Positions 6,599-35,223 of a stretch of 64,000 nucleotides of DNA are shown piece by piece. Below the pieces are notes generated by a model, which worked only from the letters and a program-made list of their open reading frames with translations, was not told the DNA's origin and searched no databases. The DNA lies in assembly GCA_002245135.1 (NCBI GenBank), contig NGBS01000597.1, positions 78,756-142,755 on the forward strand, read 5' to 3'. Made by a program: the position numbers and the translations under genes. This DNA comes from Proteromonas lacertae. Its lineage: Eukaryota; Sar; Bigyra; Opalinata; Proteromonadidae. Numbering within the stretch: the first letter of the stretch is position 1; every line of letters begins with the position of its first letter.

Positions 6599-6686
6599 TT
6601 AACAGAAAGTGTAATATGAAATTTGTTTCTTTTTTCTTTTTCTATTTTATCAATAAAAACAACAACAATATTATACAAAAAATAAA

Positions 6687-7776: not shown

Positions 7777-7914
7777 TTTAAAAACAAGTCCGTTGTCAAG
7801 CTTTTTTAAAGTTTGATCACATTTAAATCATCAAAGAATCTATTAATGGAAATAATTTTGACATTTTATCATTATTCAACACAACATAAATGCAATTAAA
7901 AAAACAAATTAATT

Positions 7915-9585
7915 TTAACGAGGTGATTCACCAACATTCTGTCTTTCAGATATAATTTTCAATGATCTAGATAGTCCTCTTTTACTATACAACATATAAA
8001 TAAACATATAAAAACATACATCAATTGCTTTTCACTTTGAAGTTCTACATAATCGTTATTCATACTATCGGATATTGGAGGATGATAAATAATAGATTGT
8101 TTATGTGAAGAAGGTGATGTAAATTCTTCTAACTGTTTCCCTCTCAAATGATATAAGAATTTAACAGCTCCAATGAGTGTTGAATAATAATATCTATAAA
8201 TAATTATTACATAATAATAAAATATACTCATATCCATTATTCATCAAGTCACTCACATCATAATATTTTAAATAATACAAATTAGTGATCAAATTACTAA
8301 TCTTTGATTTCCAGATTAATAACACAAATAATGGAATCATATCATCTGAAGCCAACACGAATTGTTTAGATTCATCTTTATCTATAAGAATAAATATAAA
8401 AAATATATATATAAATAATATACAATCCTCACCATAATATGATTTTCTATTATCTACAATCATATCAGATACACTTTGAGTTAATGATTGATATACTTCT
8501 TTAATACACTCATACTTCGCTAATGGAGATGTTCTAATTGATATCTGTTTAAATGTTGAGATAGGAGATGATAAATAATCAACACAATAATAATCAGATT
8601 TCAATCCAATAATATCTGAAGTTAATCCACCTGTATTAGTTATTTCATTCATAACACATTGAAAATCATCTTCTAAATTTTGATTCATTACTTTTAAACA
8701 GTAAAACAGCTTTTCATAGATTGAATCACTCACACATATAGCTATTGCTCTTCTTATTTGCTCTTTATATTTCTTATTAGTATCAGCAGGGAAAAAATCA
8801 TTATTATCTGTTACTACATAGGTTGTTACCATATTTATTGTTTGATTCATTTTATTTAATAAGTCTTTATATCCTAAGTCTCCATCTAGAAATATATATC
8901 CTTTGTTAAATGATTAAAAAAAAACATTCAAATTAAGGAAAAATATATATATAGTTATTTAATAAACAAAAAAAATGATATATTTGCATATAGCCATAGT
9001 ATATTTAATCCTTTTCTATTTCTTGCATCATTACATAAGATTTCTATATCTTCGTCTGATGATAAATCAACACCGAATAATAGACGTTTTTCATCAAAAT
9101 TAACCATCTGATTGGTTACATCTATTGGATGTTCAATACAAAGTATTTTGTATGGTTCATAATCTTCATTATAATATATTTCTTCAAAGAGTATCTTAAT
9201 TTTATGTTCTAATCTGTTTTTGGACGAAATTTGACTATCCTATTTTTTTATTTATATTTATGATAATCATACTCGAACTGTTATATAACCTGAATCAAAG
9301 CATATGAACAAATTACTAAGTGTAACCATTTCATTAACAAAAAAAGGAGAAGGACTTAATATATGATTATCTAACAGTAAATATATGATTAAAAAAACAA
9401 TACCTATGAAGCTTTTAGAAAATGTGAATTTCTTGAGGGAAGCAAGTTGTGGAACACATATAACCCATTTAAGTTGCACAGCCTGATATTGCAATTTCTA
9501 AAAACTATATTATATTTGGTTATACAGGATATTGACTTTGTAAAGCTTGAAAAAATATATTATCACCTAAATCTTCACCACTCAT
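7915..9585 (-). CDS. VPS9-domain protein (putative Rab5-type GEF)
   Basis: Starts MSGEDLGDNIFF at 9585; about 500 residues after removal of roughly seven introns. The recognisable part is the C-terminal VPS9 core: ASDDMIPLFVLLIWKS, then LITNLYYLKYYDVSDLM, then YYYSTLIGAVKFLYHL, which match the DD-x-LP, NL-x(3)-YI and A-x(3)-I positions of Rab5/Rab21 exchange factors. The region before it (IRRAIAICVSDSIYEKLFY, VYQSLTQSVSDMI) fits the helical bundle that precedes VPS9 cores. The N-terminal 250 residues match nothing I recognise. The protein ends KIISERQNVGESPR at 7915. Expected role: Rab activation on early endosomes (family knowledge). Intron phases all close with GT-AG splices, for example GTATGATTATC...AAATAG near 9240-9274. 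Confidence 0.75.
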
Positions 9586-10579: not shown

Positions 10580-13500
10580 TTAATTTACACATCTGAATAT
10601 TATAATTATCAATAATATCAAGTTGCAACATATAATGTAGTGAATCATTTTTTCTGCTACATTTTCATCATAAAACAGTCTAGCCATTATTCTTGTTGAA
10701 ATAGATGAGTTAATATAATAATCTGATGTCATTACTACAGTTTTTTTAATGGATTTTTTCAACAAATTCACAATATCGCTATGTTGTCTAGCAGTAGCAA
10801 TTGCTAAAGCTGTAAAACCACTTAAATCCTTCGAATCAGGAGAACAACCGATATTCAACAAATATTTCACGATATCAGCATATCCTTCTTGTGAAGCAAT
10901 AATTATTGGTCTATTATTTGAATTTCCATCTTTTGATATTCCTGATTCAATTAATGCTTTTACTACATTCAAATGACCTACATAACAAGAAATTGAGAGA
11001 GGATCTGTACCACTACTACTTTCTATAGGATTTTTATTGTAATAATAAGGTAAAATAACTTTCACAATCTCCGAAAATCCATATGAAGCAGCAATCCATA
11101 ATGGAGTAGAATTAGTCTTTTCATTACAAATAATATCAGGAGAAGCACCTCTTCTAATCAAAAACTTTATAATTTCCAAATGACCTTTCTTTGAAGCTAA
11201 ACATATGGGAGATGGCGGAATACTTAATGAAGCACCATATTCAAGCAATGTTTTAATAATATTAACATGTCCATACAATGCAGCTAAATGTAATGCAGTA
11301 TAATTGTCTTTAGTAAGGATAGTATCTACATTTATATTCTGCAATATTTGTTCCAAAAAAAAGTCATATCCATTTTCACAGGATTGTTTTAATAGTTTGA
11401 TTGATTGGTGAGATATTGTACTATCCACTTGTTTAGACCAGTAACTATGTCTCCATCTAATTAAGAATTCGTGTAGTATTGGATAGAATGTTGTGGAAAT
11501 ATTCATTTTAAATAAATAGGCTGTTAATGAATGTTCATCTAATTTTGGATCTATTTTTGAATAAATAAATAAATAAATAAATAAAATATACCTTCACCTT
11601 TAACAAAATACTTTCTCATTAATATATTACAATTACCTCCTACTTTATATAACAACGATACAGTGTGTAAATTCTCATTCACTATCGCATAATCCATTGC
11701 AGTTAATCCATATTCATCAACTTCATTTATTTTTACACCTCTTAATAATAACAAGTCAACGATTATTCGCGAATGCTTTCTACTGGATGATGCATAATGT
11801 AATGAATTCTTACCATCATTACTCTTATAATTAACATTTGCACCTTTTTCTATTAGTGATAGTGTTATTTCATAATAACCTGAGAGTGATGATATATGAA
11901 GTGGATATTGATGACATGGACCTTCAGTAGATAAACCATGATTGAGTAATATATCAACAATCTATATATACAATTAAATAACAAAGAAATATATATTTAT
12001 ATATACTTGAGTATATTGATTCATTAATGGAAAACACAAAATACTTTCATATGAAGGAAGTGGAAAAATCATCGGATTTCTTTCAAATAATTTCTCCACT
12101 ACTTTTACTTGATTTAATCGTATTGCATCTAACAATGGATATGATAAGTTATTATATAATTGAGTATTTATATTGGTTAGTTTATTCTCAATTAATAACA
12201 AGGATATATCTTCATATCCATAAATGATAGATTTATGAAGTGGTGAAAAACCTTCTTGGTTTACTGTATTAATTTGAATAATTCTATTTATTAAATATCT
12301 ACTCATATCATAATTATGATTTTGAATTGCGATAAATAAGATAAAATCATTTTCATCAATACATGGAATCTAATAAAAAAGATAAATAATAAATGAAAAT
12401 TAACTATACATCTATATATCCTTGATAATTATCGAAATACTCCAACAAATCTTGCGAAGTTCCATTAATTGCAGCTCTACATAAACATTTTTGGATTGGT
12501 GCACCATTTTCAATTAAAATTTTAATGGTTTCTTTATGTTTGTATGTACAAGCCATTAATAAAGCTGAATCTAATAACATTGGGTAATTGGTAAATAAAG
12601 GCACTAAATATTTAACTGTTTCTATATATCCATATCTTGCAGCTACTTCTAATACATTTTTTTCACTATTATTCTTTGGAATATAGTCAACACCTTTCTG
12701 AATTAGTAATTTGATAATTTGTATATAATTATTCTTAATTGCATATTCTAAGGCAGTTTTATCTATTTTCATAATAATATTCAAACATAATATTTATACT
12801 TCTATTATCTCTTTGATTTAAAGTGTTTAAATCCATTGTATCTACTAGAATAAGTGCAACATCAAGATGTCTTTCTCTCCTATATAAATATATAAATAAA
12901 CATTATATTATATATATATACAATGCAATATGTAATGGAGAAATTGACAATTTATGTGAAATATTAGGATTTGCTTTTAAATGCAATAACACCAACAACA
13001 TCACTTTATCGCCTTTACTTGCACTTTGCCATACAGATGTTCTACCATCGTTGTCTTGTATATTTATATCCGCTCCATTATCACAGAGTAACTTTACTAT
13101 TTTGGTATAACCTTGTTGACTTGCTATAAATAGAGCAGATGTACCTGTATTATCTTTACTATTAACATTTATCCCTAATTAATAGAAATTATGGTTAATT
13201 ATACTGATTTTTAGTAATTCTAATACTATATCATATGACCCTGAATATGCTGCTGTCATTAGACATGTTACATTATCTTCTCCTATACAATCGTTCTTTA
13301 CACTATATTTCAATAAAGCTTTTACTATTTCTACTTTTTTTGTTAATGTTGACATCCATAACACTGTACAGTTGTTTTTATCTACTGAATGAGGGTTTGC
13401 ACCACTGTCTAGCAAGAAAATGAACATTTCAGTATTGAGATTTTGACTATTAGAGAATATAATCCAATAAAATACACTGCATTAAACAATAATAGAGAAT

Positions 13501-13888
13501 TACCATCTTCATTATTCACATTAGCCTTGTTTTCAACCAAATACTTAACAATTTGTAGTTGATTTTTCTATTTACATTTATTTAATATACATAATACGTG
13601 AGATGCAATTTCTAATGGAGTAATGCCATTTTTATTTGGTATATTAGGATTAAAACCATGTGAAATAAACACTTTCAAAGTATCAAATAAATTCATCTTA
13701 ATTGCATTACATAGTAAGGTCTCACCATTGATATCGTATTTGTCGTCAAGTTTGACGCTATCAACTGATTTTAGATATTTTTCTACTTCTGATGGCTTTG
13801 AAATAATTTTTAGTATAGATTCAAATGTATTATCACTCTGACAACTCACTACAACGATAGAAATTAGAAAAATAAACTCAAGCCACAT
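10580..13888 (-). CDS. Large ankyrin-repeat protein with signal peptide
   Basis: One gene of about ten exons and roughly 1,000 residues. Open frames through 10580-13888 join by GT-AG introns with matching phase; for example GEG|GTATATTTTATTTATT...AATAG joins the exons at about 11507-11590. The ATG at 13888 gives MWLEFIFLISIVVVSCQS, a typical signal peptide with a possible cleavage after SCQ. About 20 or more ankyrin repeats follow (TALHLAALYGHVNIIKTLL, TPLWIAASYGFSEIVK, ALFIASQQGYTKIVKLL, NGADINIQDNDGRT and many degenerate ones). The last residues hold a hydrophobic stretch (IICCNLILLIIIIF) that could be a TM helix, although a 3' intron there is possible. Ankyrin proteins are normally cytosolic, so secretory entry is unusual. 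Binding partner unknown. Confidence 0.78.
11561..11586. repeat. AAAT tetranucleotide repeat in an ankyrin-gene intron
   Basis: Six to seven AAAT units on the plus strand, lying inside the intron that joins GEG to the DPKLDEHSL exon of the ankyrin protein. Confidence 0.65.
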
Positions 13889-14416
13889 TTTCAAGCTTGA
13901 TTCTTATATTTCATTTTATGATGAAAGATATAATTTAAAAACAAGCGTAACAAATAATAAATAAGAAACCTTACTATTATTTTAAAAGAATAAGTTAAAA
14001 ATAATAAAAATTCACAAATATTCTATAACATATTAGTTATTTTCCACAATTATGCAATAAAGCAATTTTATAAAATAATGTTTTTGAATCATTGTAAACC
14101 TTTCTCATATGTTGAAAAATATGTTTTCTTATATTTAAAGCCAATAATTCTCCTCAATAATGCATTAAATAATATCAATTTTCGAACACACATATTTAGC
14201 ACAAATACCAGTGAATTACTCACAAAATTGTGAAAAGAAATTCTATTTCAAATTTAAGCACCACAACATAAATTCCACCATAGTAAAAGCAAAAAAAATA
14301 TATTGTAGTATAAAACACCTAATAAACAATCAGTAAAACAAAAAAGAAAAATCGGATTTTGAAAGAGGGTTTTTAAACCAAAATTTTGAGAGTGTGACAT
14401 ACGTTATTTTATTAAA
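13889..14416. promoter_or_regulatory. Divergent intergenic region, ankyrin gene / nine-module receptor
   Basis: 528 bp between two divergent secretory-protein genes. At the ankyrin side the palindrome TCAAGCTTGA ends four bases from the ATG (about 13889-13901). The receptor side has AAAAAGAAAAATCGG and TTTTTAAACC upstream of its ATG. I see no ORF or repeat in the rest. Shared control of the two genes is possible but not shown. Confidence 0.45.
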
Positions 14417-17400
14417 ATGATGAGTTTAAAAGAAGTGCTTCTGATTATACTAGTAATGATACAATTCTCATCAGAAAGTTCAATTGCCGCAAAGAAAATG
14501 TGTTTTGCTTTTGAAGATGATGAAGTTGCTGATGTATTAATAGATATAACTGAAGCATTATTCAACTCAACAAATGTAATAAATGATAATGATATGGAAT
14601 ATGTGAAGTTTGATACTTCAATAGATCAAAATACAGTAGATACTTATAAAAAATTGGGTGAAACAGGTAAATGTGGTATAGTATTTACAAAACTTAAAGG
14701 AATAAGAAATAATTTATCAGCAATAGTTGAAGTTAACAATATGATGAATTATTATAATATGTATACTATTAGTAGTGTTCTTGGGACAATACCAATATGC
14801 TTTAACCGTGTTATAAGAGGATATCTAACTTGTGATTCATCTTTTCAGTGTATGATTTATAAGATTTCTATTTATATATATATTTTAAATAGATATGAAT
14901 TATTATTGGAAAAATAACACCAATTTTGTACTAATATATTCAGATAAAAGTGATATGAAAGGTTGTGTAAGTAGTTATACTGAATACTTCAAAGGTAATG
15001 AAATGAATATCACACGAATAATAAAATATGATACTGCAACAACACCTCCTTTATATGAAAAAGTATTAGCTGAATTTAAAGATAAGAAAGCAATAGTGAT
15101 TAACTTTTTACCAGCAGATGAAACAGAACCTGTTGCTTTGTATATATCCACAAATACTCTAAATATTACAATGATTTCATTTCAAGAAATCTCAAAAGCA
15201 GATTTACCAAAATTTCCAACAACAAGAGATACCACTGATAATAAATATTCATTTTATGTAGCATCTCAAATTATATCATTGGATATAGAAAAAGATGAAG
15301 CATTTAAGAATGCTTATTTATATGTAAGAGATTATAAACCAACTTTAGATCCTTCTACCACTGATACTGCAGCTACTACTACTGCTCCACCCAATCCACC
15401 AACTACTCCTCCTCCAGTTAATATTGCTGATTTTACAACAGAAATGAAACTATAGTATATTTATTTATTTTGTATATATATATATATAGTTATGAGTTAT
15501 TATCATTATATTTGAATGAAGTAAAGACAAAAAAGATTGTAACACCTGAAATGGTTATTAATAGCTTATATAATGAATTAAGAACAATTAATGAGGTTAG
15601 TTACAGTTTATTGTCTAATAATGTTCTAGTTGGTTCAGTAGATGGTTATGAAATTGTTGTAGATGCTGGTAAAAATGTCTTAGCTAATGAACCATTTAGA
15701 GTTGTTCCAATCAGTTTTGATATTCAAGAAAAAGAGTTAAACGGCAAACCAATAGAAAATCTCTGTGATTTTTCAATTTCTGAAACTAATTTTAAATCAA
15801 CTTATCAATATATTATAACTGTAAGTTATTATTCAGGTGCTTTAAAAGTATTAATTGAAGGAATTGAGGATACATTAGAAGTTGCTTTGGATAGAATCAA
15901 TGAAGAAGAAGAGATATTGGGAAAGAAAACTCTCTCAATTACTATTGATGCTTCAAGTGGTGTTGAAAATGTATTGAATGAAATAAAAAAATACTATGAA
16001 AAATTTGATATTCTAGCCGTTTTATATTATGGTTTAGATGATGTATTAAATGCAATGATAAAAGCTTGGACTTATGATATTCCCATTATAAATTACAGTA
16101 TAACAGCAGGAGAACATTGTAATAGTAAAGTATTAGAAATGGGTGTAAATATCCAAACATTATGGAGAGCAACAACTGAATTATTTGATATTGACACCAT
16201 GATGATTGTATATAGTGATAGTGATTATTCAAACACTGCTCGTGATATTATAAGTGCAAATGCTGAGGAAATTGGTATATATTTAAAGGAAGATGCTTTT
16301 GTTGAAGAAAATACAGTGGAAGCTTCAAAGAACGCATGTGGTCAAATTTATTCAAAATGTACAGATGGGTGTTATGTGATTAATATATTAGATAGAAGTT
16401 ATTTTACAAATTTATTTACTGAATGTTATAATGATTATAATATTTCATCAACAAAATACCCAATAATATCATATGCTATTGATGAACAATTATTAAAATC
16501 AATTGATGCAAAAGCAGTAAATGGTCATTATGTAGTTGGATATTTCTTTGATTCAATGGAAACTGAAGTTGGAGAACAATTGAGAACTGCATTGAGGAAT
16601 AGGAATTATTTTGGCAAAGTAACTTCAAATATGGCTATTTTATATACTACCACATTTGTTATTGCTAGAGCATTTAATAAAGCAAGAAGAAGTGATCAAC
16701 TAAGAGCATTTTTGCTGTATATTTTCTATTATTTTTCTATTTACTTAGAGGTGCAAGAAATAGTTTTTATGATGGTCCAGGTGGTCATTGTTATGTTAGC
16801 CAATATGGATATGGAAGTTATTTATTTAATTCTGGATATATTAGTGATGGTAGTATAATTGAATTAGATAAATCAAAAGGCACACAAATTGCATCTGCTT
16901 TTAATGACCCTTCTGAATATTGTGATTGGGTAAATGGCAAATTAGATCATTTACAAACAAAACAAGTGATATTTTTGTATGTAAGAAATGAAACAAATAC
17001 TGAAAGAATTGATTATTATGAATATACAGCTAATCAAGTCGGAGGATTTCTTAATTCAAAAGGTGGAATTGCTGGTTATATGTTGAAAGTTAAAGTTCCA
17101 CCACTTCATTCAATTGAAGATTTAGTAAAATATATGAAAGGTGTAAATCCTATAAATGTTTTATGTTATGTTGGTACAACATCATATCTTTTTAATTTAA
17201 GATATTATTATTTTTATTAGTTATATATCTTTAATTACTGTTTAATAAAGAAGAAAGAGAAGCAATTAAAACAATATTAGCTGAACAGGATAAATTATTA
17301 TTCAGTATTCATGCAAGTGAAGGTGAAGAATGTGATAAACAAATCATTCAAATTGCTAGAATTCCACATCAATATGTATTTTCTGTATTTGGTTATTTCA

Positions 17401-20400
17401 CTGAAAGACAAAGCGTTTGTGCTATTATATCTGATAATTCAACGTATTTTGTTATTATTTAATTTATTATAAATAGTACTAACGATGGAATTGCAAATTA
17501 TTTATCCCAAGTGTCACATTCATTTGTTTCTTACAATTGCTATGTAATTAATTTTGAGAATTTTGAACGTTTGAAATATCAATTGAATTTAATGACTACA
17601 TTTTCAAATTCTACAACTTTATATTCTTTAATGGGAAGTTTGACAAATGAAATGATTAATAATATTTATGATTGGGGTTTTTTACCTCCTGAAAAATATC
17701 CAATAGTTATATTAGATTTATTATATCCAGAGTATTATAGTTTTGAAAATAAAACTAAATATGAAGGTCATTATTATGTTTCATCTTATTCATTACAAAA
17801 GACAAATCAAGAGAATTTACAGATGAAGTCAGTTATTGAATTGTATTATGGAAATTTGCCTCTACAAATGCATGAAGATTCTGTTGCTGCGTATATATAT
17901 ATTAATATTTTTTTTAGTTTTTCTGCTTTAACATTAGTTGCTTCAGCTATGGGAAACATTTTTATTGAATCATCAGCTGAATTAAGATATAAAATCTATA
18001 AAACATCAATCAATACTCCATATGGTGAAATATCAGTTTCTACATCAAATTTGATGAAGTCTTATTTTACAATTCATAAATTCACAAATGAGACTGATAT
18101 ATTGTTAATATTACCTGAACATTCACTTGAAAGGTCACAATATTCTGCTTTTGTATATATATTTATATATTTATATTATAGTTGAATAATAATATAAACA
18201 ATGTATGTGACTTTGATGAAGGTGTAAATGTCAATTATTATGAAAAAGAAGTATATAAATTCGCACTATGGTATGAAGATGAAGATGAAGCACTTTATTT
18301 TCTATTAAGAGAATATCAAGATATTACTAATGAAGAAGGTGGTTTTGGAGGTTTGAATTATGATTTAGTTAAAACATTTTGTAAGAATGATACAGAAATT
18401 GAAATGTCATTTAATCAGTCATATAGATTTATTATTAGTGGATGTAGTGATGAAGTTAATAACAAATATATTGGACGTTTAAATAAGACATTTATGTTTG
18501 TAATGAAAGATCAGCAAACTTCAGCTTGTAATGATTCAGCGTATATATTTTATATGTTTTATACATTATTAATATTGAAATAGAATATATTTGGGTTTAT
18601 CTCCTTATCAGCAAGCATATCCATTAATCAATTATATTTCGACTATTTATCCACTTAAAGCTTTTGTAATAATGGATATTAGTTATAACAATTCAATATT
18701 CCATGATATTATTGTTGAATATTTACATGAAAGTGGTTTTGAAACACCAATTGATGTTTATGTAAATGAAAGTAGTACTGTAAAAGAAGTAGAAGAACAA
18801 GTATATGGAATATTATCAAGAGTATTAAGATACATGCCAGAAGGTGGTGTAATATTTAATTATTTAAATGAATATTCTGAAAGTGTATATACTGCTTTTC
18901 ATGATATAATATGTTATTCTCAAAAATATGAAAATATAGATTGTAAAAATTCAAGTGTTTATACTGACAAATATGTTATTGTTACTGACAATAACGAAAT
19001 GTTTGGTGAAGTAGAACCAAAATTAAGAATTGGTCATTTGTTGTTAGTTAGTAGTTATGTAAATACAGCACCATATATTGAACAATTGTGGATTGATTTA
19101 TTTGGTAAAAATCAAATTCCAACTTCTATTGAAGCAAGAGGTGCTTTAGGTTATGAATTGATGAAAGACATTTTGAGTAATACATTAACAGATGATTATG
19201 ATACAGTTAGAGATTATATGTTTAATAATAATATAGAAACATCATTTGGTGAATTAGTAATAGATATAGATTTCCATTTACATGTGAAAATATCAATAAT
19301 GACAAGTGATGAAAATGGTAATATAGTAGAAGTTAGTCAATTGTCAAGTTATTTCCCAGCTGAAACATATTTCTTAACATCTAATTCAAAAACTGAACAG
19401 TTTGTGTGTGATTTCAAAGATGCACAAGGCGAAACAATTCAAAAGATATTTAATGTTGTTATATTTGGACCTTTATCAAATGCTGATGCTTACGTTGGAA
19501 ATGAGATGATGTATTCATTCTTATCAAGCTTCGACTTGATTAATGAAAATGGAGGTATTCAAGAAAGATTTGTCAATCCATTAGTAATTGATTCTACGAA
19601 TGATGAAATAGTTTATGATACTATAAGAAATATGAAGAGAATATACCATACAAGAATAATATTTGGATGTTATGATTCATTTACTAGAAATGGAATTGCC
19701 AAAGATTTGCATGAAAATGGAGTTTTATTGTTTTATCCACATAACTTTGAAGGCTTTGAATGTAAAGAGAATATTATATATTGTGGAATGCCTTTCTCAC
19801 TTAGAATTGCTTATATTCCTTGGATATTATCGACATTTGATAAAGATCGTATAGCTATATTATACACTGATAAAGTAACAGAAACAAAAATAATGCAGTA
19901 TATAAAAAGTGAATTTAGTATTAGAGAAGTAACACCTATTGCAATTATTGAAGTTTCAAACACTGATTATGATATGGAGAAAATATTGAAGTTATTACAG
20001 TCTAAAATGAGTAGTGGTGTAATTATATCTTTATTGACTGGAACTGCTAGATTTGAGTTGTTTAAAACAATGTTTGAATTAGAAATGACTTCTGATTCAT
20101 ATACAGTTGTTGCTGAAAAGGTGAGAAGAGTAGATATTGATGGTCCATATGGTAAATATATGGTAGGACATTATATTTGGGTTAGTTTCCATAAAGATTA
20201 TTATCCATTAACAGATGTAAGAGAAATATTCAATAAAGAATATTCGTTTGCAATAAATACTACTCATGGTAGTGAAAATGCATTCTTTGCAGCAAAAATA
20301 TTTGAGAATGCCTTTTCAAATATTCAATTCAATGATTCTGAAGGTTTAGAAGTTCCTTACACATTTGAAGAAGCTTTAGATGCAATTCATAATGCTATAA

Positions 20401-23400
20401 TAGTAGAAGGAGGTATGAATGTGAAAGTTTTTACCAACAATTATATGAGTTTTTCAATCAGTTTATGTAAAATATTAGAAAACAAAACAACTGGATATCT
20501 TGAAGCTAATGCAATATATGAGTATCATTCATCTGATGTTACTGCACCAAATCCTTGGAAAACTAGTGATCCTAATTATCCTAGATTATCATGTAATTGG
20601 GATACAAAAGCAGCAATAAGAGGTGAACAATTACAGGAAGATAGTTACTTCATTGGTGCAATATTTTCAGTTAAAAACAACGAATCTCCTTTTGAAATGT
20701 ATGGTTTGAATTTGTTAATTGCAATGACATCAAAGATTAATGATTTAGGTGGTGTAATTGGTAAAACATTGAATTTTAAAGTATATGATCCTTCAGCTTA
20801 TGATAATGATTATGAAAAAATAGCAAAAATAGCAGCTGAAGATGAAGTATCAGTATTCTTTGGTTGTTATACATCTGAATGTCGTATTGCATTTGCTAAA
20901 GAATTTCAATCAATCAATAAGTATTTATTCTATCCACAAACATATGAAGGTCAAGAATGTTATTCAAGTGTATACTATTTTGGAAGTATTGCAAATCAAT
21001 TATTTGACCAATTAGTACCATATTTAAGAGTTGTATCTAATTATAATGAGGTATTGTTGATTGGATCATCCGATTTTGAACCTGAATATACAAATACCTT
21101 ATTTGATGTAGTGAAATTTAAACTGGAAGATATAATGGATAAAAAAGGTGAATATAGAATAGACAGTAAGAGTGGAAGTGCAAGAGCAATTGTATCTACT
21201 GTATTAGATGATTTACCAAATGGTGGTATTATTATTTCAACATTGATTGGTGATCCACTAAATGAATTTTTGGTTGCATTGAATGAGAAGATTGTAACAA
21301 GACATCAATTACAAGTTATTTGTATTGGTCCAGATAGAGAAATATTGGATTATGCAATAAATGATTATATTGATGTTTATGAACCAAGTTATTATTTCGA
21401 TGAAGTAAATGAAACAAATGCATTCCGTTTAGCTTCTATGGAATATACAATAAAAGAAATAAATTCAGCATATGAAAGTTCAGTTTATGCAGGAATGAGA
21501 TTTTGGTATAGAGCTGTTTTAAAAGCGAATAGTTTAGAAATTGAAGATTGGAGAAAAGCAATAATGGGAATGGAATATGAGACTGGATCTGGTATATTGA
21601 AAATGAACAAAAATCAATATGTATCATTACCATTCTATTTAGGACAAGTTAATACAACAAGCAGAAGGTTTGATATAGCATTTGAACAGGATATAGTAAT
21701 CGAGCCAATGGCTTGGAATTGGGATATTGTTGAAACACATGGTAAAGTATGTGATCATACAATTGGTAAAAGTAAATACGATATTGATATAATAAATATA
21801 CTGTTTGGTATATCATTAACAGGCATTCAACAATCAATGGATACTGGATTATCTAATGTAATGAATATGTTAGTGGATGAGTTTAACAATCTAGGAGGAA
21901 TTATAGATCATAGATTGTATGTAACTGATATTGATATAGGTAGTGATGATACAGAATGTTCAACTGTATTTTTTAAGAATTTCGCTAATGATGTAGATGA
22001 TACAATCAATTTAATTATTACTACAGCAAGTATTGAATGTATGACAATGATATTAGATGAAGTAGTAAAAAGAGATATTCCAATTATACATATTGGTATG
22101 TCACCTGGTGAATCATGTGAGAATAATATCATCTATGCCAATAAAGAGCCAAGTATTGTAGAAAGAGTAGTTAGCATATTGAATGATGTAACTGATGAAA
22201 GTACATTAGCTTATGCAATATTATCAACTTATGATGAATCTAGTTCAAGAGCCAATCAATATGCTCAAAAAGTAGTTAAGAATTTAGGTGGAACAATTGT
22301 TCTTGCAAAGACATTTACATCAACCATATCACAGCAAGAAGTTGATTTAATAATGAAAACTATAAGTGAAAGATCAACAGGTTGTTTTGTTTTATTGTTT
22401 GGTAGTGATAATTTACATAAATATGTTGATAAATCATATACTAATATCAATATAAATGCTGAAAAATATAAGATAATATCTTATTCCACAGGTGAATCAA
22501 TGAATAGTCCAAATTATCAGCCATTCTATTCCATACAATCATATTTCCAATCTATAGAAGGTGAATCAAATGAAATATTTGTTAATAGAATATCTAAATA
22601 TACTAAGAATCCAATAACTGAAAGAATGTCAAGTTTATATGCAGTTTTCCATTTATGGGCAGATGCAGTAAAGAAGGTGAATAGTGTAGATTATTCAAAA
22701 TATCAACAAGCATTATACACTGTTAATTTTGATGCACCAGAAGGAAATGTGAAAATTGAGACGAATAACTATATGAATCATTATATTCGATTTGGTTATC
22801 ATAGAAAAGGAAATAATGACTTTGATAAAGTGTATGAAAGTTCATTACCAGTATCATCTAATCCTTGGAAAACTGAAATGAATGATGGTTATTATATATG
22901 TGATTTCTCAAGTTCAACAATTGGCAGATATGCAAGACAATCAACCGTTTCAATTGGTGTATTAACCAGTTTTAGTGGTTCATTAGCAAGTACTGATAGA
23001 ATTATATTGAATGGTCTTAAAGCTGCAGTAACTGAGTTAAATAATAATGGTGGTGTATTGGATAGAATGGTATTAATGCAAATTCGTGATTGTAAATCTT
23101 TATTACAGAATTATATAGCTTATGCAACAGAATTAGGAAAATTATCTGAAATTGTGGCTATATTTGGTGGTTCAAGATATTCACAACAGTTAGCTGTATC
23201 TGAAATTGCCATTAAATATAATATTTTATATTTCTATCCAGCAATGTCAGGTGGTGAATTCTGTTCAGCAAATACATTCTCATTTGGTATTGTCGGAAGT
23301 CAAATGATTTCAGTTATAAAGAAATATGTAACAATGAAAGTTAATACATTCATTGAAGTATATGATACAACCGATTTTTCAATTAACATTACAAAAGCAT

Positions 23401-26378
23401 TAGAAAGATATGGAGATGAAATAAAAATTGCTTCTTATCCAGTATCTTATCTCAATTTGACTGATATATTATCAATACCAGAAAGTATAAGAAAGAAAAG
23501 TGCAATTATTGTGTTTGTTTCAATTGATTTTATCCCTATAACTGTTAATACATTATGTGAGCTTGGCATTTATCCTGATGCTGGTTATAGTATATTTGCT
23601 GTAACAATGGAACAACTGCATGCCAAATCAATTCCACCAAAATGTTTAAGTAATTATAGAATGTTAGCAACATTTACAAATGATATGGGATTAACTACAT
23701 CAGATGATGTTACAAAACAAGATTCAGCAGTGACATTTGTTACTGCAATGAATGATTTGTATGGTGAAGGTTCTTGGTTTACACAACACTTAGAATCAGC
23801 ATATACAAGTGTGAAAGTATGGTCTGAAGCAGCAAAAACATCATTTTCATTTGATACTGACAAAATTAAAACTGCACTTTATGGTTTATCAACCACTACT
23901 CCAGCTGGTTTATTAGTTGTTAATCCAAATGGCTTTTCAAATCGTGTAATTTATGGATTTCAAGTTGATGGAACTGGAAAAACAAAAGTGACTAGTTATT
24001 CTCCTCAACCAGAAACAGCTGATGCTTATAATCAATTGATTGAAGGAAATGAAGAATATGTTTGTGATTTTACTGATAAAGGTGTGAGATTCAAATATGA
24101 TTCAGTAAAAATAGCATTATTCCATGATGCATCTAGTACAGCTCATGATAGAGAAATGAGAATATTGACTTTAGAAGAGTATTTAATTAATGATATTAAT
24201 AATAATAAAATCAATGGTTATTATATTCAACCAATCATTATATTTGGTACAACAGCTCAAGATTTTATTAATGAAATTCACAAGATTGAAAATGATACAA
24301 ATATTATATTATATATGGGATGTAGAGGAGATCCATGTAGAGAGACAGTATTAGCTGAAGCAGAAAGATTGAACATGTTCTTTATTTATACAGGTATTTC
24401 GGAAGGTTATATGTCAAGTAAGAATATGTTAGTTACTGGTAACACAGCTTATCAAAAGATTCGTGCTTCTATAACGTATATGTTAAGTCAAGGAGTAGAA
24501 AACTTCTTATTGATTTTATCTGATGATCCAAAGATGAAGAAGTATTTGACAACTGCCCAGTATGTATTAAAAGTTGAAGAAAAATACAGTAAAGTGAATT
24601 ATATAACTGTTGAGTCAAATAGAACAGATACAAGTTATTATACTTCAATAGCATCTCAAATATCTAGTTCGAAAATAATAAATGGAAGATTATGTTGTAT
24701 ATTTATTTATTTATTTATTATGTTAAATAGTATTATATTTCTTGGATGGTACATCTTCAAGAATGACATTACAAGCAATGAAAGATTATGGAATTAATTT
24801 CCATGAGATTATAGCTATTCTAATTAGATATACAAGATCAGATTATAGTGATGGTTTCTTAACTGGAATGCCTGGAAGTTTAATAACTGTCAGTTATTCA
24901 TCGTCTTTAACAACATCTTTATCTGAAGCGTTTGTAAGTGATGTGCAAGAGAATTTAGGAAATACAGCAGAGACTTTGCAAGAAATGGAATATATAAAAG
25001 TTGGTTTTGATATATGGAAATCTGCAATGATTCAAGCAGCTGAAGATAGTGGAAATAAAATTCCACCAATTGAATATCTTAGATCTTGTATAATTGGTCA
25101 AGATGTAAAAGCACCAAGTGGTTCTGTATATGTTGAAGAGAATTTGCATTTACAGAGAAATATATTTATAATGGAAGGAAATGCAAATGGTGATTATTTA
25201 CAAGTATATCCTGATACAGGACAAAGTATATTGATTGAACCAAGACCATATCCAGAAGGTTTACCTGAATCTGCTAGATATGGTAAAAGTAAAGGCTTAT
25301 TTGAATATAGCACTTCAATTGTAGCAGTTTGTTATTTGATGATGGGTATTGGTATTATATTTTCACTATTTGCATTGATATTCACAATTGTCAAACAGAA
25401 AAAACAAGTTATTCGTGCATTTGGAAGACCTTATTCTTACACATTAGCATTTCACTTGTTATTCTCATCATTTTCTGTTTTGACATATATTATTCCACCA
25501 AGTGAAACTAATGGTATATGTAAAGCTCGTGTTGCTGTAGTAGGTATTGCGTTTAAAGGTATTTTAGGTTTATTCTATGCAAAAGTAACAAAAATATATC
25601 AGAAATATGTCAGAACTCAAAAGATTATAGTAAAAGTATAAATATACATTATTTATTTATTTAATTATTATAGTCGCGTGTTACTACTGCTAGAATATTA
25701 TTGTTTTATGTTGGTTTTATAGTTTTAGGATTACTAGTTGTTATGGTATGGTTCTTAGCTGATATTCCAGAATATGATCCAGTTGAAACTACAAAATATT
25801 CATCCTATTTTGTAGATGTTTCAATTCGCCAATGCACAGTTTCAACTCCTCTATTGTATTTATTTATATTATATATTGTTTATTATTAAATTAGATCTGT
25901 TGAATTAGTGATTGATGGTTTGTTGTTGTTATTCCTTATTTACTTAACAGGAAAAACAAAGAATGCTGCAAATCAACAGAATGATAGTATTGGAATGTTT
26001 ATTTCTACATTGATATTGACACTATTAGGAGGAGTTATGGTAGCTTTAGATTTCAGTGTTAGTAATGAACCTGATTCAATATTGCTGTTAAGAACATTAG
26101 GAACAGAATTGATTATTATTCTAATGGTATTGTTACAGTATGGTATAAAGTTACTTAATTTGTATTTGGATGAAACAGCAAATCTTACAACTGAGTCTGG
26201 TAGTAAACATGTAGGAACAAATGGACATTTAGGAACTGGAACTGGAACAGGAATGCATACATCAACATCAATCAGTAAAATACCAAATTCAAGTTTATTA
26301 TCACAATCTGCATTTTTATCTTCTAAGATGACTCATACTCATACAGCCAAAACTCTCAGAACACAACAGAAACATTAA
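14417..26378 (+). CDS. Giant class C GPCR with nine tandem periplasmic-binding-protein modules
   Basis: About 3,840 residues in 12 exons. The start MMSLKEVLLIILVMIQ is a signal peptide. The ectodomain repeats a type I periplasmic-binding fold nine times. Each module opens with a C-[DN]-[FWH] mark: module 1 from 14490, then Cys codons at 15764, 16921, 18206, 19407, 20592, 21750, 22899 and 24063, about 1.15-1.29 kb apart. Modules resemble bacterial UrtA/AmiC amide-binding proteins: FGCY-x(2)-R, LLFYP, EG-x-EC and YxG (modules 5 and 6 best). After module 9 come seven TM helices (about 25310-26170), with a conserved Cys-Lys-Ala-Arg at TM3 and a short Thr/Ser/His-rich tail. This is the Family 3 arrangement, in which a ligand-binding lobe signals to G proteins. 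Ligand unknown; amides, urea or amino acids are guesses. The exon junction at 17184-17242 lacks GT-AG ends. Confidence 0.85.
17184..17242 (+). other. Candidate non-GT-AG intron in receptor module 3
   Basis: Removing about 59 nt here joins GTTS to (N)KEEREAIKTIL and restores the module alignment. The segment starts ATATCTTTTTAATT, has no GT donor in a suitable place, and near its end carries ATCTTTAATTAC, which looks like a U12 branch-point motif. Boundaries are uncertain by a few bases. A consensus error is the alternative. Confidence 0.4.
25310..26170 (+). other. Class C (7tm_3-type) seven-helix domain of the nine-module receptor
   Basis: Seven hydrophobic segments: IVAVCYLMMGIGIIFSLF, YTLAFHLLFSSFSVLTYI, VAVVGIAFKGILGLFYA, RILLFYVGFIVLGLLVV, VELVIDGLLLLFLIYL, IGMFISTLILTLLGGVMV and TLGTELIIILMVLLQYG. 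Two introns interrupt it (near 25637-25675 and 25855-25892). FGRPYSYTLAF before TM2 and NGICKARV before TM3 fit GABA-B-like receptors. Exactly one such domain serves all nine ligand modules. Confidence 0.85.
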
Positions 26379-26502: not shown

Positions 26503-27767
26503 TTAATTCCTTGGTTTAGCAGCTAGAAGAGTATGTCTCCATCCAACACTTATATCTTTAACAAACAAATTTTCGCATTCCTTCATAACAGTTGGTGGAT
26601 TAATCCAATCCCACTTATACACAACACCTTCATCATCAATTCCATAAAAGCAGTTATTCCCAGATATACTCTTTACTAAATTATGTTTATTTAATTCAAC
26701 CATATTCACAGGCTTTGGTGTATTAACCATCCTAGTCAATCCATTATTTTCTCTCAATTTCCCTTGTTTTATCAATTCTAAAGCAGTTAAAGCATCTCTT
26801 AATCCATACATATATAAATTCTGATGAATATCTTGCAAGATTGTAATATACATATTACTGTGTATATGGATGATTCTTTGTTTCATATCTATTCTTCTTG
26901 GATACAACTGATCATCATATATTTTCTTTTTAAAATTAGGTTTTAAGGATTGAAATTTACCCCAAGTATATACTTTACCATTTCCAGTTAATCCTAAACC
27001 ATTTGAAAATCCTAAAGATATATCCACAATTTTATCATTATTACTTCTCACAATACTAGTTAATTTATCACATTTTACTGGTTTTCTAATATTATCATTT
27101 TCTCCAATACCTAATTGACCTCTTGTACTTTTACCCCATCCATAAATATTACCTGATTTAGTTAAACACATTACATGTTGAAAACCACAGATAACTTTAG
27201 TTACAATTTCATCATCTAATCCTACAACTCTTCCTATTGTAAAAATATTATTCTTATCACTTCCTTGACCACATTGACCATATTCATTATCACCAAAACT
27301 GTACAATTTACCTGATTCTGTTAAGAAAAAGGTTAATGCCATTCCTGTTGTTATATCCACTATTTTTTCATTTTCAAATATGAATTCTTCTGGTAGTAGT
27401 ATATCCACTGCTGATTTACCAAAGAATTTATTGAACCACTTTGCTAATCGATGACTTGCATCATTCCATCTGCCTATTTCAAGTATATTATGAACATCAT
27501 GAGTTCTTCCGAATAAATATGGCTTATTAGATGTTGATAATACTGCAGAATGTCCCCATCCTGCTGATACTTTCATAACATCTACATCTTTCAATGCTTC
27601 TATTTTCTAAAAAACTGAAAAAAAAAGATACTTTTGGAATTGCAAGACTCTCAAAATCACCATGTCCTAAACAACCAATATATCCATCTCCAAATGAATA
27701 AGCTATAAAATTCGATAGAAGTTAACAAATACCTCTAAATCCATTCTCAACATTGCTAACTAAATGA
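26503..27767 (-). CDS. RCC1-repeat protein, RCC1L/WBSCR16-like
   Basis: Beta-propeller protein. Repeats include AYSFGDGYIGCLGHGDF, VSAGWGHSAVLS, LYSFGDNEYGQCGQGS, VICGFQHVMCLTKSG, IYGWGKSTRGQLGIG, ISLGFSNGLGLTGNGKVYTWG and a final ISVGWRHTLLAAK. The YGQCG and Gly-Phe-Gln-His blocks are closer to RCC1L/WBSCR16 (a mitochondrial protein in animals) than to the Ran exchange factor; this is a judgement by eye. Two short introns (one 25 nt, 27607-27631) link the main exon, whose first ATG is at 27594, to an upstream repeat running to at least 27767. The true start is unresolved, because no upstream ATG joins in phase. Divergent from the TPR gene. Confidence 0.75.
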
Positions 27768-29673: not shown

Positions 29674-32600
29674 ATGTTTAAGAGAGCTATATTACTCCTA
29701 TGTATATATTATCATATATAAATTATTTTAGACATGCTCTTAAATGTGTTAGGATCTAGTTATTACAGTAATGGACCATTTAAGTATTTAGCTCCACTTT
29801 CAATACAATATCCTCAAAAAGAATATACTTTATATATTTATGACACAGTTTATCCCATAAAACCAATACTTAGCCAACCAGTATATAATTTCACAGTTGA
29901 ACCATCTTTACCATCTGCAATTACACTTGACTCTGAGACTGGTGTTATTAGTGGGTATTGCTTAAAAATAATAAATCAAACCTACACAATTACAGCTCAT
30001 TTAAGCAATGAAAAGAAAGCTTCCACAAAAATCTATTTCACAGTATCAGCAAAACCTATATTATCTGAAAATAACCAGTTCAATTTCAGATTTGATGATG
30101 ATCCAAATTGCCCAACAAATGGAAGAAAATATTATATTGGTTCATTTCCATCAGTATATACAACTTCAGTAAACTATTATAATTCCCATTTTGTCATTCC
30201 CACAAAATCATTATCAGAAATAAATCCATTATTAACATTTAATTATAAGAATGAAAATGTAAAATCAATTGATATTCAAATCAATTCAAATTCAATGTTA
30301 AAAGAGAAAAAAGTTGATAAAGAAAGTGAAAATGATGAAATTGTCATGAACATTCCAATAGAATATATAACAAAGGGAAGAAATGAAATAACAATCATTA
30401 TTAAGAAAATAAAGCCAAGTAATGATAATAACCTATTTACAGTTTCAATTAAATATAATATTGAAGATTATAAAAAAGCGATATTGGAACATCGAAGAAG
30501 AGTATTAGAAGATGAAAAAAAAATTATTGATTTTGGTGAATCACTTGAGTTATATGAATTTATATTAGGTATTAATTATGAATTACCATATAATTTAACT
30601 GATGGTAAAGATTATTGTGTTACATTCGTTGATAATAAAACATATGTAGGTAAAGGAGGATTAAGTGAAAATGATCTTATCTATACATATGGTATTTCAT
30701 TAGATACTGTAGCAAAGAAATTAGTAATAAAAGGTGTTAGTAGAACTGAGGAGAATATAACAGTAGTTGTAGGTGTATATGAAAAGGGAGATAGAGATGC
30801 TTGTGGAAATATATTTCCAAGTAATTTTACTGATTTTAACGATACAGAAAAATTAATTATTAAATTAAGATGTCCTCCTCCTTCTAATTTTCAGTTTATT
30901 CTTTCTGAAAGTACTAGTAAAGCATATGTTGGTGAGAAGTTTTCATATATGGTAAATGTGTATTTCACAGGTGGTACAATAGAAAAATGTCCAAACAATA
31001 TTTATGTTGCAGATGAAGATTCTTCATATTTTACTAATATGGGATTAAATATAACAGGAGGAGGTCAGACTAAGAATTATCATTTGAAAGGAACTCCACA
31101 ATATAGAGATATTAATTTCAATTTCACAGTTTATATGAAGAATGCAGATGATAAATCAAACGATTATTTTGTTAAATTCCCTATTTATTATAATAAACCA
31201 AAGAATTTGAAATATGAGACAGAACCTATAATTATGTGGTATCATTATAACTATTCCAGTGAAAGTTCAAATATTACATTAAATGCAACTGTTGATATAA
31301 AAAGTGAACCAAAATATACAATAGTATATAATCAAGGTTTGTTGAACAGTTATGGTATTTATATAAATGAAAGTACTGGTAGTTTGTATGGATATCCCAA
31401 TAATAGGACTATGTTAGATTCTACAAAACAAGCAATTCAATTCGAAGTACAAGGTTCAAATGAAGGTGGTCAAACTACTCAACCATTTAATCTTCGTGTA
31501 TTATATGGTCCACCAAATGGATTAGATATTGAACCGAAATATGTATATATGGAATTAGAAGAAAATATTGATCGATTTCATATAGATTGTTATGATTGTT
31601 ATATATTGAATTACACAAAAGATTTTTGTGGAGAAAATGTAAGTGTTGATTCAGGAATAGAATTTAATAATAGATCTAATAATGAAAATTCACTTAATCC
31701 TCTTTATATTGATCTGAGTGATTATAATAATATCAATACAAAAGATAGAGAAGATAAATTATATTTGAATAATAATACAGATACATATTTGTTTGAAGGT
31801 GATGCAGTTAATAAAGGTGATTATACATATTGTATAAGAGCATGTAATGATCAAGGATGTAGTAATCCAGTTGAAATAGAAATAGAAATAATCTGTCCAA
31901 TTGTAAAGAACTTTACTTATGAAGGTGGTTACAGTGAAACAGATGATGTAATTAATTCTGATGAAAATGAAGATTATAGATTTGAGGATTATGCAGATAT
32001 AGGTAAAGATTATAGTTACATATTCTTAAATGGAACTGATGTTCAACCTAATTTTTCACCTAATCCGAATTTACATTTAAAAAAAAATACAATGAATCAA
32101 TGTAATTATACATACACAATTGAAGATGAAGATATATTATCAGATGTAGGTGTTGATTTTAATGAATTAGATGGTAAATTCTATGGAACTCCATACGATG
32201 TTACTAATATTACAGCATATAATATAACTGTATATAATGAAGTGGGAAATGAAACATTAGATCAAGAATATATTTGGGTTGTTTATCCAAAACCAGGAAA
32301 GATTTATTATAATATGTATAATGTATCAGTAAGAGTATATTTGGATTGGTTAGATGTATATCCAATTAATGTAAATGATTATGTTACAGCATTTAGATTA
32401 GCTGGTGATGAAGCTGGAAGAATCAATTTCTTAAACGAGCATGCTTTAGATTATTCTACTAAAAGTGGTAGATTTTGGGGTTTAGCTAATTCATCATTTG
32501 GATGGGAAGAGTTTGGAGTATTTGGTAAGAATGATAGAGGAAATTCTACAAATGTAACTGTTATTTCTATAATGGCTTACTGTGTAGAAGCTCAGAATTT

Positions 32601-35223
32601 AACATACACTGATTTGAATAATTGTAAAATTAATAAAACAGATCCATTTTGTTTTAGAGAAGGTTATTTAAAAGCATATGTTGGTGAATATATTGGTATT
32701 TATAAACCAACATTTTGGTGTTGTGATTATATGTATTTATATTGTGACAAAGAATTAGAACTGAGAAAGAGTGGTATATTCTTCAACAGATTAACAGGTG
32801 ATTTTCAAGGAAATGTAACTCAACCTTTTCCTGAACAAGTTGTTCATTTTTATGTGTTTAATAGTGTTGATTATGATAAAGCAACAGGAATATCTATTCC
32901 TTTTAATTTGACAGTTTATTTTACACATCCACCACCATCCAATCTAAGATATTCTCCAAATCCTGTTACTTTTTATGTGAATGTAACAATTAATCCAATG
33001 ATTCCTACTATTGATGGTGTTGTTTATAATTATACTATTAGTAAAGAATTTGAAGAATTAGAAGGTTTAGAATTTGATAACAAAACTGGTATTATATCTG
33101 GAATTCCTGAAGAAGTAACAGATAAACCAATAATATTGAATATCACAGCATGTAATGATGAAGGATGTGTTTATTTCGAATTGAATATAACAATTGATAT
33201 TCTTAAAGAAAATACTATAATGTATTTACCAAAGAAATACATCTTCCCAATAAATGACTATTCAGAAATATCAAAACCATCCTATTATACGCAACAATCA
33301 ACATTATTGAAATTTGAAATAAGTGATTATGATTATTTAACATCAATTGGTTTTATATTCAATACAACAGATGGTTCAATTAAAGGAACACCAACCATAT
33401 TGGTAGAAGAACATGAGTTTATTATCACTGGTTATTTTAACGATAGTGATAATCCAACAGATAGAATATCAATACAAGTGTATGATCCATATCAATTCCC
33501 AATATATATACCAGAATCAGCTGTATTTGATGAAAATTCACTTCATATTTGTTTGAATTATACTCATCCAAAAGGATTGCCTATTATATGTAGATTATAT
33601 AATAATATTACCTTAACCAATGAATGGGAAACTGTTCCTCAATTTATTGGCTTATTAGATGGTCAGTTTTATTCAATTATAATGAAGAATCATTCAATTT
33701 TATTAGATGAAAGTAGCAAATATTATTATCACGGATTAGTTCATAATTTATTAGGTTCTACAATTAAAGATATTAATTTCATTATTGAAACAGGAGGTGA
33801 TGAAAATGAAAGTGTTTATTTGACTGAAGAACAAACATTAGAAACTACAGATGTTGGCTTTATATTTTCATATGCAAGTAAATCACATTTCTATAGTATT
33901 TTAGTAAAAGTGGAAGGTGATTTTTATACTAATTTGACTGTAGAGAATTATGCATTATTTGTAGCACACAGTTATTCATCTTCATTTGTTAAAGTGATGA
34001 TAGAAAGTGAAGGTAATGTTACAATTAATAATCTTGGAAGTATAGGTATAATGCTTTGTAATGGTGAAAGTTTATCCATAAAGAATTCTTATATTCATAT
34101 GAATATTGTAGAGTATAAAGATCCAGTTTATGCTGGTTTATTTGCTGGTGTTTGTACATTCTGTTCATTTTTAAATTCATTCAGTCATGTCCATACTTTT
34201 AATACTTATGTTATTTACTATGGTGATTTTTATATATCAGGATTTATTGGTGTTTCAGATTCTTCTAATTTTACTAATATTATGACGACTGTTGGAGAGT
34301 TTAATATTCAAGATGATCTAAGATTTAATGGAAAAGTTGGTCTTGAAATGAGAAAAATGCAGAATCAAGTGATAAGTGAATTAGTTGGTCATTCTCAAAG
34401 TTCAAAATACCTTACATGTAATACATATTCTAAATATAATATAATGAATACAGGCTTAAAGTTTGGAATTGGAATTGGTTCAGATGTTGCATTTAGAAAT
34501 AATTCAATTGCTGAGAGTTATTTTACAGTTTATTATAAGGATTTAGATAAGTCAAACAATTTCAAAACATTACCAATGAGATCCAATATTACTAACACTA
34601 TATTATATGTAAAACCTGATTTAGATGATTATTTTAATGATAATAAGGATGAAATAAAGGAAAATAATAAGCCAATCAGAGAAGATGTTTATATTTTGTA
34701 TAATAATGGTGAAGAAGTAAATTTAACAAAATATGAAGGAGTAAAAAGTGTTAAATTTAATGAAAGTTTAGATTCAAAGTTATTCGATGGATTAGATTTC
34801 TCAATATTTGGTTATTGGTCATATGTAGTTCCATATGAAGTGATTAAATCATTAGAGGATATAACTAATCCACCAGAAGATAAAGGAGAATTGAAGTTTA
34901 AAAAGTCAGTATTTCAATCAAGATTACCAATTAGACTTGATAAAGGAAATAATACATTTGAATACTGGCCTGTTGCTGGTAATTGTTATATTGTGTTAGA
35001 TGAATGTTGGGATGTTGAAACATGGGAAATTAAGACAAAGAACTTCCCTGTGTTGAATAGATTCAGAACAGATTATCATTATGAGAAACCATTTGAATCA
35101 TTTGTTGATAAATACTCTACACAGTGTTTGCCAGAGTGTAGTAAGCAGCAGCAGTGTATTAATTATAAATGTGTTTGTATTAACGGAATGAAAGGTTTAG
35201 ATTGTGATATACCATTTAATTAA
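29674..35223 (+). CDS. Secreted 1,839-residue putative-Ig (He_PIG-like) repeat protein
   Basis: Two exons: ATG at 29674 (MFKRAILLLYMLLNVLGSS, a signal peptide whose first ten codons lie in exon 1), then one 5.5-kb exon. The N-terminal two thirds hold putative-Ig repeats of the bacterial adhesin type, each with a pattern like (S)LPSAITLDSETGVISG or GLEFDNKTGIISGIPEE followed by a strand ending YTITA/ILNITA. Around residues 1290-1620 the pattern changes to short beta-strand repeats (GLFAGVCTFCSF, SGFIGVSDSSNF) that suggest a beta-helix. The C-terminus is an EGF-like unit (CLPECSKQQQCINYKCVC...GLDC). Many N-glycosylation sequons (Asn-x-Thr/Ser). No TM or GPI signal, so probably secreted or wall-bound. 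It shares the fold series with the giant gene at the right edge. Confidence 0.8.

Follow-up and report, generated by a model that had tools for sequence, protein, structure and literature searches.

Class C receptors normally have one flytrap per chain, are usually dimeric, and use this flytrap to drive one 7TM domain. The GABA-B type is an obligate heterodimer. The ectodomains of the animal class C receptors belong to the ANF_receptor family. In bacteria, membrane proteins with two binding domains in a row are found among the BvgS-type sensor kinases and the GlnPQ transporters. Ectodomains of bacterial type are also present on class C receptors of other eukaryotes. In the anaerobic gut fungi of the Neocallimastigomycota, this receptor class is expanded, and about half of its members have a bacterial-type substrate-binding ectodomain, according to the accessible part of that report (PMC5168858). 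The glutamate-family receptors of Dictyostelium and of early fungi combine BMP, SBP_bac_1 and other periplasmic-binding ectodomains with a class C 7TM, as described in the available portion of that study (PMC3251606).

The window analyzed here, a 64,000-nt stretch of Proteromonas lacertae DNA, contains a gene whose predicted product resembles these receptors in kind. We read it, with a probability of roughly 60%, as a giant GABA-B-like class C GPCR with nine modules of the UrtA/AmiC kind, one of a large family of putative chemoreceptors.

Gene model and module array

In the predicted splice model, the frame starts with an ATG at 14417 and ends at 26376-26378 with its single, terminal stop. The features are as follows.

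14417..26378, + strand: whole receptor gene, predicted splice model with 12 exons, 3,848 aa
14417-14849, 14893-15454, 15490-16716, 16749-17183, 17246-17443, 17477-17890, + strand: exons 1-6 of the splice model
17918-18152, 18182-18540, 18584-24696, 24731-25635, 25674-25855, 25895-26378, + strand: exons 7-12 of the splice model
17184-17245, + strand: U12-type intron, AT-AA ends (AT-AC in the closest paralogue)
14417..14485 (end approximate), + strand: hydrophobic N-terminus, signal-peptide-like, hydrophobic peak at aa 1-19
14417..15763, + strand: module 1 (M1), degenerate, weak in-register profile match; Pro/Thr-rich stretch near 15350-15424
15764..16920, + strand: module 2 (M2), Peripla_BP_6, 74.8 bits
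16921..18205, + strand: module 3 (M3), Peripla_BP_5, 49.7 bits (provisional junction)
18206..19406, + strand: module 4 (M4), Peripla_BP_5, 27.5 bits, barely over the cut-off of 27.0
19407..20591, + strand: module 5 (M5), Peripla_BP_5, 95.3 bits
20592..21749, + strand: module 6 (M6), Peripla_BP_5, 147 bits; best PDB match UrtA 7s6f, E 1.1e-28
21750..22898, + strand: module 7 (M7), Peripla_BP_5, 108 bits
22899..24062, + strand: module 8 (M8), Peripla_BP_6, 108 bits; PDB 8tg1, E 6.9e-19, and UrtA 7s6e, E 1.3e-18
24063..25255 (end approximate), + strand: module 9 (M9), Peripla_BP_5, 101 bits; intron 24697-24730 inside
25303..26126, + strand: 7tm_3 domain; introns 25636-25673 and 25856-25894 inside
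26127..26375, + strand: end of the 7TM part and intracellular tail (C-terminal)

The modules are delimited by a Cys-(Asp/Asn)-(Phe/Trp/His) mark. All the Cys-Asp-Phe-like marks reported by the first-pass annotation were recovered, 1,149-1,285 nt apart: CDF at 15764, CDW at 16921, CDF at 18206 and 19407, CNW at 20592, CDH at 21750, and CDF again at 22899 and 24063. After cutting the protein at these Cys marks (with M3 at its provisional junction), eight of the nine modules (modules 2-9) exceeded the Pfam cut-off for Peripla_BP_5 or Peripla_BP_6, with scores from 27.5 to 147 bits. Together with alignments of M6 and M8 to solved structures, this bears out the periplasmic-binding fold that had been proposed from the letters of the window. 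In the final gene model, M3 scores 144 bits against a custom module profile. Module 1 gave no Pfam match; its comparison with the module profile yielded an hhalign probability of 49.6 and an E of 1.7e-4, versus E 0.23-0.42 in five out of five shuffles, and in the final model it scores a weak 6.2 bits against the custom profile. The ANF_receptor profile reaches at most 26.4 bits on any single window module (M2; cut-off 25.4). The 7tm_3 domain is clear (88.3 bits, cut-off 33.5), and the Pfam search revealed no additional domain in 26127..26375 and no lectin or adhesion domain in the window gene. It is near certain that the predicted domain architecture, nine flytraps followed by one 7TM, is real.

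The longest open part of the gene, 18579-24797, comprises 2,072 codons without a stop in DNA of 26-29% GC, a length far beyond chance expectation. Ten of the 11 introns have the form GTATNN...TAG and are 27-43 nt long. The exception interrupts module 3 at 17184-17245, where a frame-keeping GT-AG intron was sought and none was found. A DNA search of the genome identified a paralogue on contig C49, 75% identical over this stretch, and the alignment places the same interruption in both genes. The two introns have the 5' end ATATCTTTTT in common, as well as TCTTTAATT near the 3' end, and terminate in AC in the paralogue and AA in the window gene. For the paralogue intron, ATATC and AC are ends of the U12 type, and the ends of 17184-17245 presumably fit the U12-type (minor spliceosome) consensus. 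The genome also contains matches to the U12 RNA (56.9 bits, cut-off 53) and the U6atac RNA (81.5 bits, cut-off 33), at C424:32552-32701 and C1066:116605-116719 (L041, L042). Because of this intron and these two RNAs, the AT-rich genome seems to keep a minor spliceosome.

Excision of 17184-17245 results in 12 exons and 3,848 aa without an internal stop, so that the one gene assumed by the first-pass annotation across 14417-26378 is recovered as a single predicted spliced frame. A frameshift or pseudogene in module 3 was ruled out by the U12-type intron in common with the 75% identical paralogue. In comparison with the closest paralogue, three alignments that together cover aa 260-1210 give dN/dS values of 0.34, 0.43 and 0.35 (dS 0.60-0.91); they cross six stops of the paralogue, presumed to be intronic. 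Given these ratios, the N-terminal modules of the window copy (aa 260-1210) look to be under purifying selection.

Uninterrupted relatives support the same layout. Contig C283 of the same genome encodes a 3,672-aa frame with nine module hits and a 7TM, the first two modules being weak (19 and 25 bits). P0122, from another public source, is encoded in one frame of 3,886 aa on a 13,756-nt contig; it begins with Met and a hydrophobic stretch, and has nine Peripla_BP_5 stretches and a 7tm_3 domain of 128 bits. Since these frames hold nine module hits and a 7TM without interruption, the layout is no splicing artefact, and separate genes or misassembly as its origin were ruled out, one of the two relatives coming from a different source. 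The annotated arrangement, in which nine modules precede a single class C 7TM, therefore holds for the window gene and for both single frames; a division into separate genes is excluded for those two, while the window copy is a predicted splice model. P0001 and P0123 each have six module hits and a 7TM, and P0124 has seven module hits; all three are apparently partial. The best match of P0123 in this genome (on C1163) is only 80% identical over nearly its full length, which indicates a different, related organism or lineage that also carries the receptor family. For P0122, the closest of the retrieved sequences is 49% identical over 2,623 residues. In a collection of 5.8 billion proteins, one relative was found for the window frame and three for a paralogue; this search needs shared 5-residue words, and the lack of further relatives is thus weak evidence.

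The surroundings of the gene are those of an ordinary gene-dense eukaryotic region. On the minus strand, domain genes of the RCC1-like (26503-27606), BEACH (38936-43924), FANCL (49707-50537) and VPS9 (8194-8913) types are present. Beside the receptor, the region 10580-13903 (-) contains an ankyrin-repeat frame (10580-11593) and, by eye, further ankyrin-looking frames. An uninterrupted 3,860-aa frame at 51424-63006 (-) with PA14 and Ig-like (He_PIG) domains is probably another giant surface protein. A 1,833-aa frame at 29722-35223 (+) matches an Ig-like domain (He_PIG) once and, at E 1e-5, nothing else in Pfam.

The receptor family and the history of its array

The genome in which the window lies (50.2 Mb in 1,181 contigs) is eukaryotic by its introns and EF-1alpha. 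Three aligned EF-1alpha 2 chains contain a 12-residue stretch, taken as an opisthokont mark, that is missing from the EF-1alpha of this genome, and a fungal or animal origin was rejected for this reason. Among the 120 EF-1alpha rows listed, the two closest (98% and 92% identity) come from the source 'lgn', and a FastTree of 104 rows placed no named sequence near it. A profile search gave 132 7tm_3 matches, a number that includes fragments and near-copies and is not a gene count. Open frames of at least 1,000 aa contain 57 of these matches, 36 lie in frames of at least 2,000 aa, 22 in frames of at least 2,500 aa and seven in frames of at least 3,000 aa. Modules precede the 7TM at all eight best-scoring 7TM places and at all 20 places picked, non-randomly, for their long frames; three places are common to both sets, so that 25 of 25 distinct places carry modules; two of the best-scoring ones (L001 and L002) look like near-copies. 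With its upstream DNA included, the paralogue L009 also has nine modules, the first being a 54-residue trace of 11 bits. The window receptor is thus one member of a large family and no lone oddity. A search of a plasmid collection gave no match. The UrtA-like arrays are not the sole flytraps of this genome, which encodes proteins with ANF_receptor domains at other places (134 bits at C992).

A module tree was calculated from 139 of the 148 module hits of 22 proteins, nine pieces of at most 250 profile positions being left out; the window protein entered this and the following tree in a 3,852-residue version, whose module 3 junction contained an X and a small number of incorrect residues. On this tree, the chain position of the modules requires nine changes (minimum 7; shuffled mean 93.0; none of 200 shuffles as low), and the gene of origin 130. 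After addition of P0122-P0124, the position label requires 12 changes among 159 modules (minimum 8; shuffled mean 106.9), with M1 and M2 scarcely represented by one and two rows. Both trees are quick searches with long-branch warnings and unsure in their finer branching; in each of them, one branch separates position 9 from all other modules, and another does so for position 6. Since the modules sort by chain position and not by gene, the array was assembled once, with its order fixed, and whole genes were multiplied afterwards. The order of positions M3-M9 is kept across the 22 proteins. Position-specific Cys patterns agree with the tree in suggesting an array built once: M6 and M9 have an extra Cys pair at columns 202/211 (19-23 of 23), M7 has one at columns 170/211 (21 of 23 each), and M5 and M8 are almost without extra Cys.

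The modules have not diverged evenly along the chain. Averaged over all gene pairs, the identity is 0.200 in M3 and 0.186 in M4, compared with 0.246 in M8 and 0.258 in M9, the two highest values, with small reversals in between. In six of seven paralogue pairs, dN in M3-M5 lies above the M8-M9 level; the pair L020/L023 is flat, and the gradient is non-monotonic in some other pairs. A faster divergence of the membrane-far modules is shown for most of the pairs compared.

Two paralogues, L009 and L025, also differ unevenly from each other, and they are the one pair for which an identity profile was drawn along the gene. Their DNA identity is 0.54-0.68 up to position ~4,000 of L009, lies at 0.70-0.99 in the stretch that follows, as far as 6,413, and is 0.99-1.00 at 6414-8513, which spans most of M8 and M9. 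Correspondingly, dS is 0.01-0.02 in M8-M9 and 0.94-1.07 in M4-M5. Such unequal dS within one gene points to a recent exchange between the two paralogues, by gene conversion or recombination.

A further regularity concerns the junctions between modules. The mark Cys is present in 122 of 151 modules, and a Cys in a YEGxEC-like loop in 136 of 151. The mark Cys is associated with the loop Cys of the preceding module (counts 128/8/5/10, odds ratio 32, p 8e-8) and less so with that of the following one (113/23/9/6, odds ratio 3.3, p 0.04), p-values that overstate the association because the rows are related by descent. The two Cys are lost jointly in 10 cases, at four positions (six of them at M3), and one-sidedly in 13. 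The window protein has neither a loop Cys in M9 nor a mark before TM1. We read this as a mark-loop disulfide that would tie each module to its C-terminal linker.

Putative signalling, ligand pockets and possible functions

In the paralogues, the 7TM part is closest to the GABA-B receptors. Among solved structures, the L009 7TM is nearest to GABA-B2 (60.8 bits, versus 38.5 for mGlu3), and a profile of 20 paralogues gives 142 bits with GABA-B2 and 72 with mGlu7. The Cys columns of TM3 and extracellular loop 2, which we take to be the class C disulfide pair, are filled in all 22 proteins of the 7TM alignment, the window protein included. In this alignment, a short linker with at most two Cys joins M9 to TM1, and no Cys-rich domain intervenes. 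Site 3.50 is occupied by Lys in 15 of 22 proteins, Arg in three and Ser/Thr in four, and its acidic partner at 6.35 is present in every one of the 19 rows long enough to include it, three rows ending earlier; the window protein has Lys and Asp. These residues may correspond to the Lys 3.50 and Asp 6.35 of the GABA-B ionic-lock pair. The window 7TM, which is without a juxtamembrane Cys, reads KVTKIY at the KxWRxH stretch, and the basic residue at this site is absent in four of 22 proteins.

Potential signalling partners are encoded in the genome. Twelve G-alpha matches were found, five of them long (243-355 bits, two equal in score), as well as 85 RGS matches. Several RGS domains occur per frame on C85, C633, C371 and C36, for example three in a 510-aa frame on C85. 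This RGS expansion may parallel that of the receptors. Chemoreception through G proteins is the likely function, the coupling being proposed by homology.

The first-pass annotation recognized a UrtA/AmiC-type signature in several modules. In fold and overall sequence, this likeness stands: the best structure matches of M6 are UrtA (7s6f, 8hic and 7s6e), followed by 8tg1 and AmiC (1pea, E 2.3e-07), and M8 matches 8tg1 first and the UrtA entries next. It does not extend to the residues that contact urea, most of which are replaced. The urea-binding residues are known from Prochlorococcus UrtA, as given in the accessible part of that report (PMC10392092), and nine contact sites taken from it were mapped onto an alignment of the 139 modules with UrtA, in which no array position retains all of them. 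Window M5 and M6 keep S122, Y141 and E146, and both replace Q144, Y190 and N246, with Asn at 144 and Thr at 246 in M5. Across the family, M5 keeps Tyr141 in 14 and Glu146 in 15 of 22 proteins, with Asp at 144 in 13 and Glu/Asp at 246 in 17; M6 keeps Tyr141 in 15 of 22. With most of the urea contacts gone, the resemblance to UrtA gives urea no support as the likely ligand. For the same reason, some modules, or the majority of them, may have no ligand at all. An amine or guanidino compound would fit an acidic M5 pocket better than urea, but this is a guess.

Conservation of the pockets was compared with that of the rest of each module in two subfamilies, a borderline test with at most nine columns each and 13 uncorrected comparisons. 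The M5 pocket is better conserved than the rest in both (0.42 vs. 0.29 and 0.50 vs. 0.33), a level reached by ~6% and ~4% of random column sets, and M5 alone, of the positions tested in both subfamilies, behaves in this way. For M7, the relation is reversed in both subfamilies: its pocket columns fall below the remaining ones, to a level that 2.5% and 11% of random column sets also reach. These values, the scarcity of UrtA-type pocket residues and the weak matches of M1 and M4 would fit a long stalk, in which one or two modules bind ligand and the others are degenerate, rigid flytraps holding the sensor beyond the cell coat. A passive stalk, however, would not need far modules that diverge faster in six of seven pairs, nor an order of M3-M9 kept across 22 proteins with Cys patterns proper to several positions, and new pockets need not look like those of UrtA. 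Such a stalk is conceivable, but we consider it doubtful.

The fixed module order and the position-specific disulfides have also led us to consider that each position is a distinct working solute sensor. Up to nine cues would be combined, and the paralogues would trade their near ends and diversify their far ends by gene conversion, resulting in a combinatorial repertoire. We regard this elaborate version as unlikely.

A capture or phagocytic receptor, whose array would grip polymers or particles of prey bacteria, the modules serving for avidity and not as nutrient sensors, seems more improbable still. Many paralogues with variable distal parts would fit varied prey, and a precedent is provided by a Dictyostelium chemoattractant GPCR that recognizes lipopolysaccharide for phagocytosis, as stated in the available part of that work (PMC5969738); the modules, however, are of a small-solute-binding type and the Pfam search of the gene revealed neither a lectin nor an adhesion domain. 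An annotation artefact, be it several adjacent genes, an assembly error or a pseudogene in decay, is hardly credible: the window copy does need 11 introns, one non-canonical, and its module 1 is degenerate, but the two uninterrupted frames, the odd intron common to the paralogue in a genome with U12 and U6atac RNAs, and the low dN/dS all stand against it.

For the preferred reading, that of a giant chemoreceptor, the following mechanism is proposed. The protein would be located at the cell surface, where one or a few modules would close on small solutes. This closing would pass along the chain, by way of the Cys-latched linkers and of modules 8-9, which are conserved, into the 7TM, which would then activate G proteins, and the divergence of the far modules would give the paralogues different ligands. 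Nine serial flytraps on a GABA-B-like 7TM offer a test of the distance over which a protein can transmit the closing of a flytrap on its ligand, and of whether a single GPCR can process several inputs. The family also suggests a route by which a single-celled organism could obtain a large chemosensory repertoire from nutrient-binding proteins of bacterial type, and its modules are natural starting points for multi-input biosensors.

Comparison with described systems

The first-pass annotation knew of no receptor with this layout, and none with nine flytraps is present among the literature matches listed. Tandem flytraps on a class C GPCR are likewise undescribed among these matches, a scope outside which most subscription papers and preprints fall, and Peripla_BP_6 occurs together with 7tm_3 in no paper of the literature search. 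Within the range of these searches, the architecture is a new one in a known class of receptors.

The BvgS-type kinases and GlnPQ transporters differ in having two binding domains instead of nine, and are not receptors of the GPCR kind. In the Neocallimastigomycota, the domains are of type II and the N-terminal domains measure 200-1600 aa in the accessible part of that report, compared with nine type I domains and ~3,500 aa here. The Dictyostelium and early fungal receptors have N-termini of 57-1667 residues, and the available portion of that study mentions no tandem array (PMC3251606). UrtA and AmiC resemble the modules themselves, M6 being similar to both and M8 to UrtA at the E-values given above; unlike these bacterial proteins, the modules are arranged in tandem, fused to a eukaryotic receptor, and have most of the urea-contact residues replaced. 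The GABA-B receptors resemble this family in their 7TM, GABA-B2 and GABA-B1 being nearest to the paralogues among solved structures, and in a flytrap ectodomain that precedes TM1 without a Cys-rich domain. They differ in having one flytrap, where the present receptor has nine, composed of UrtA-like Peripla_BP_5/6 modules.
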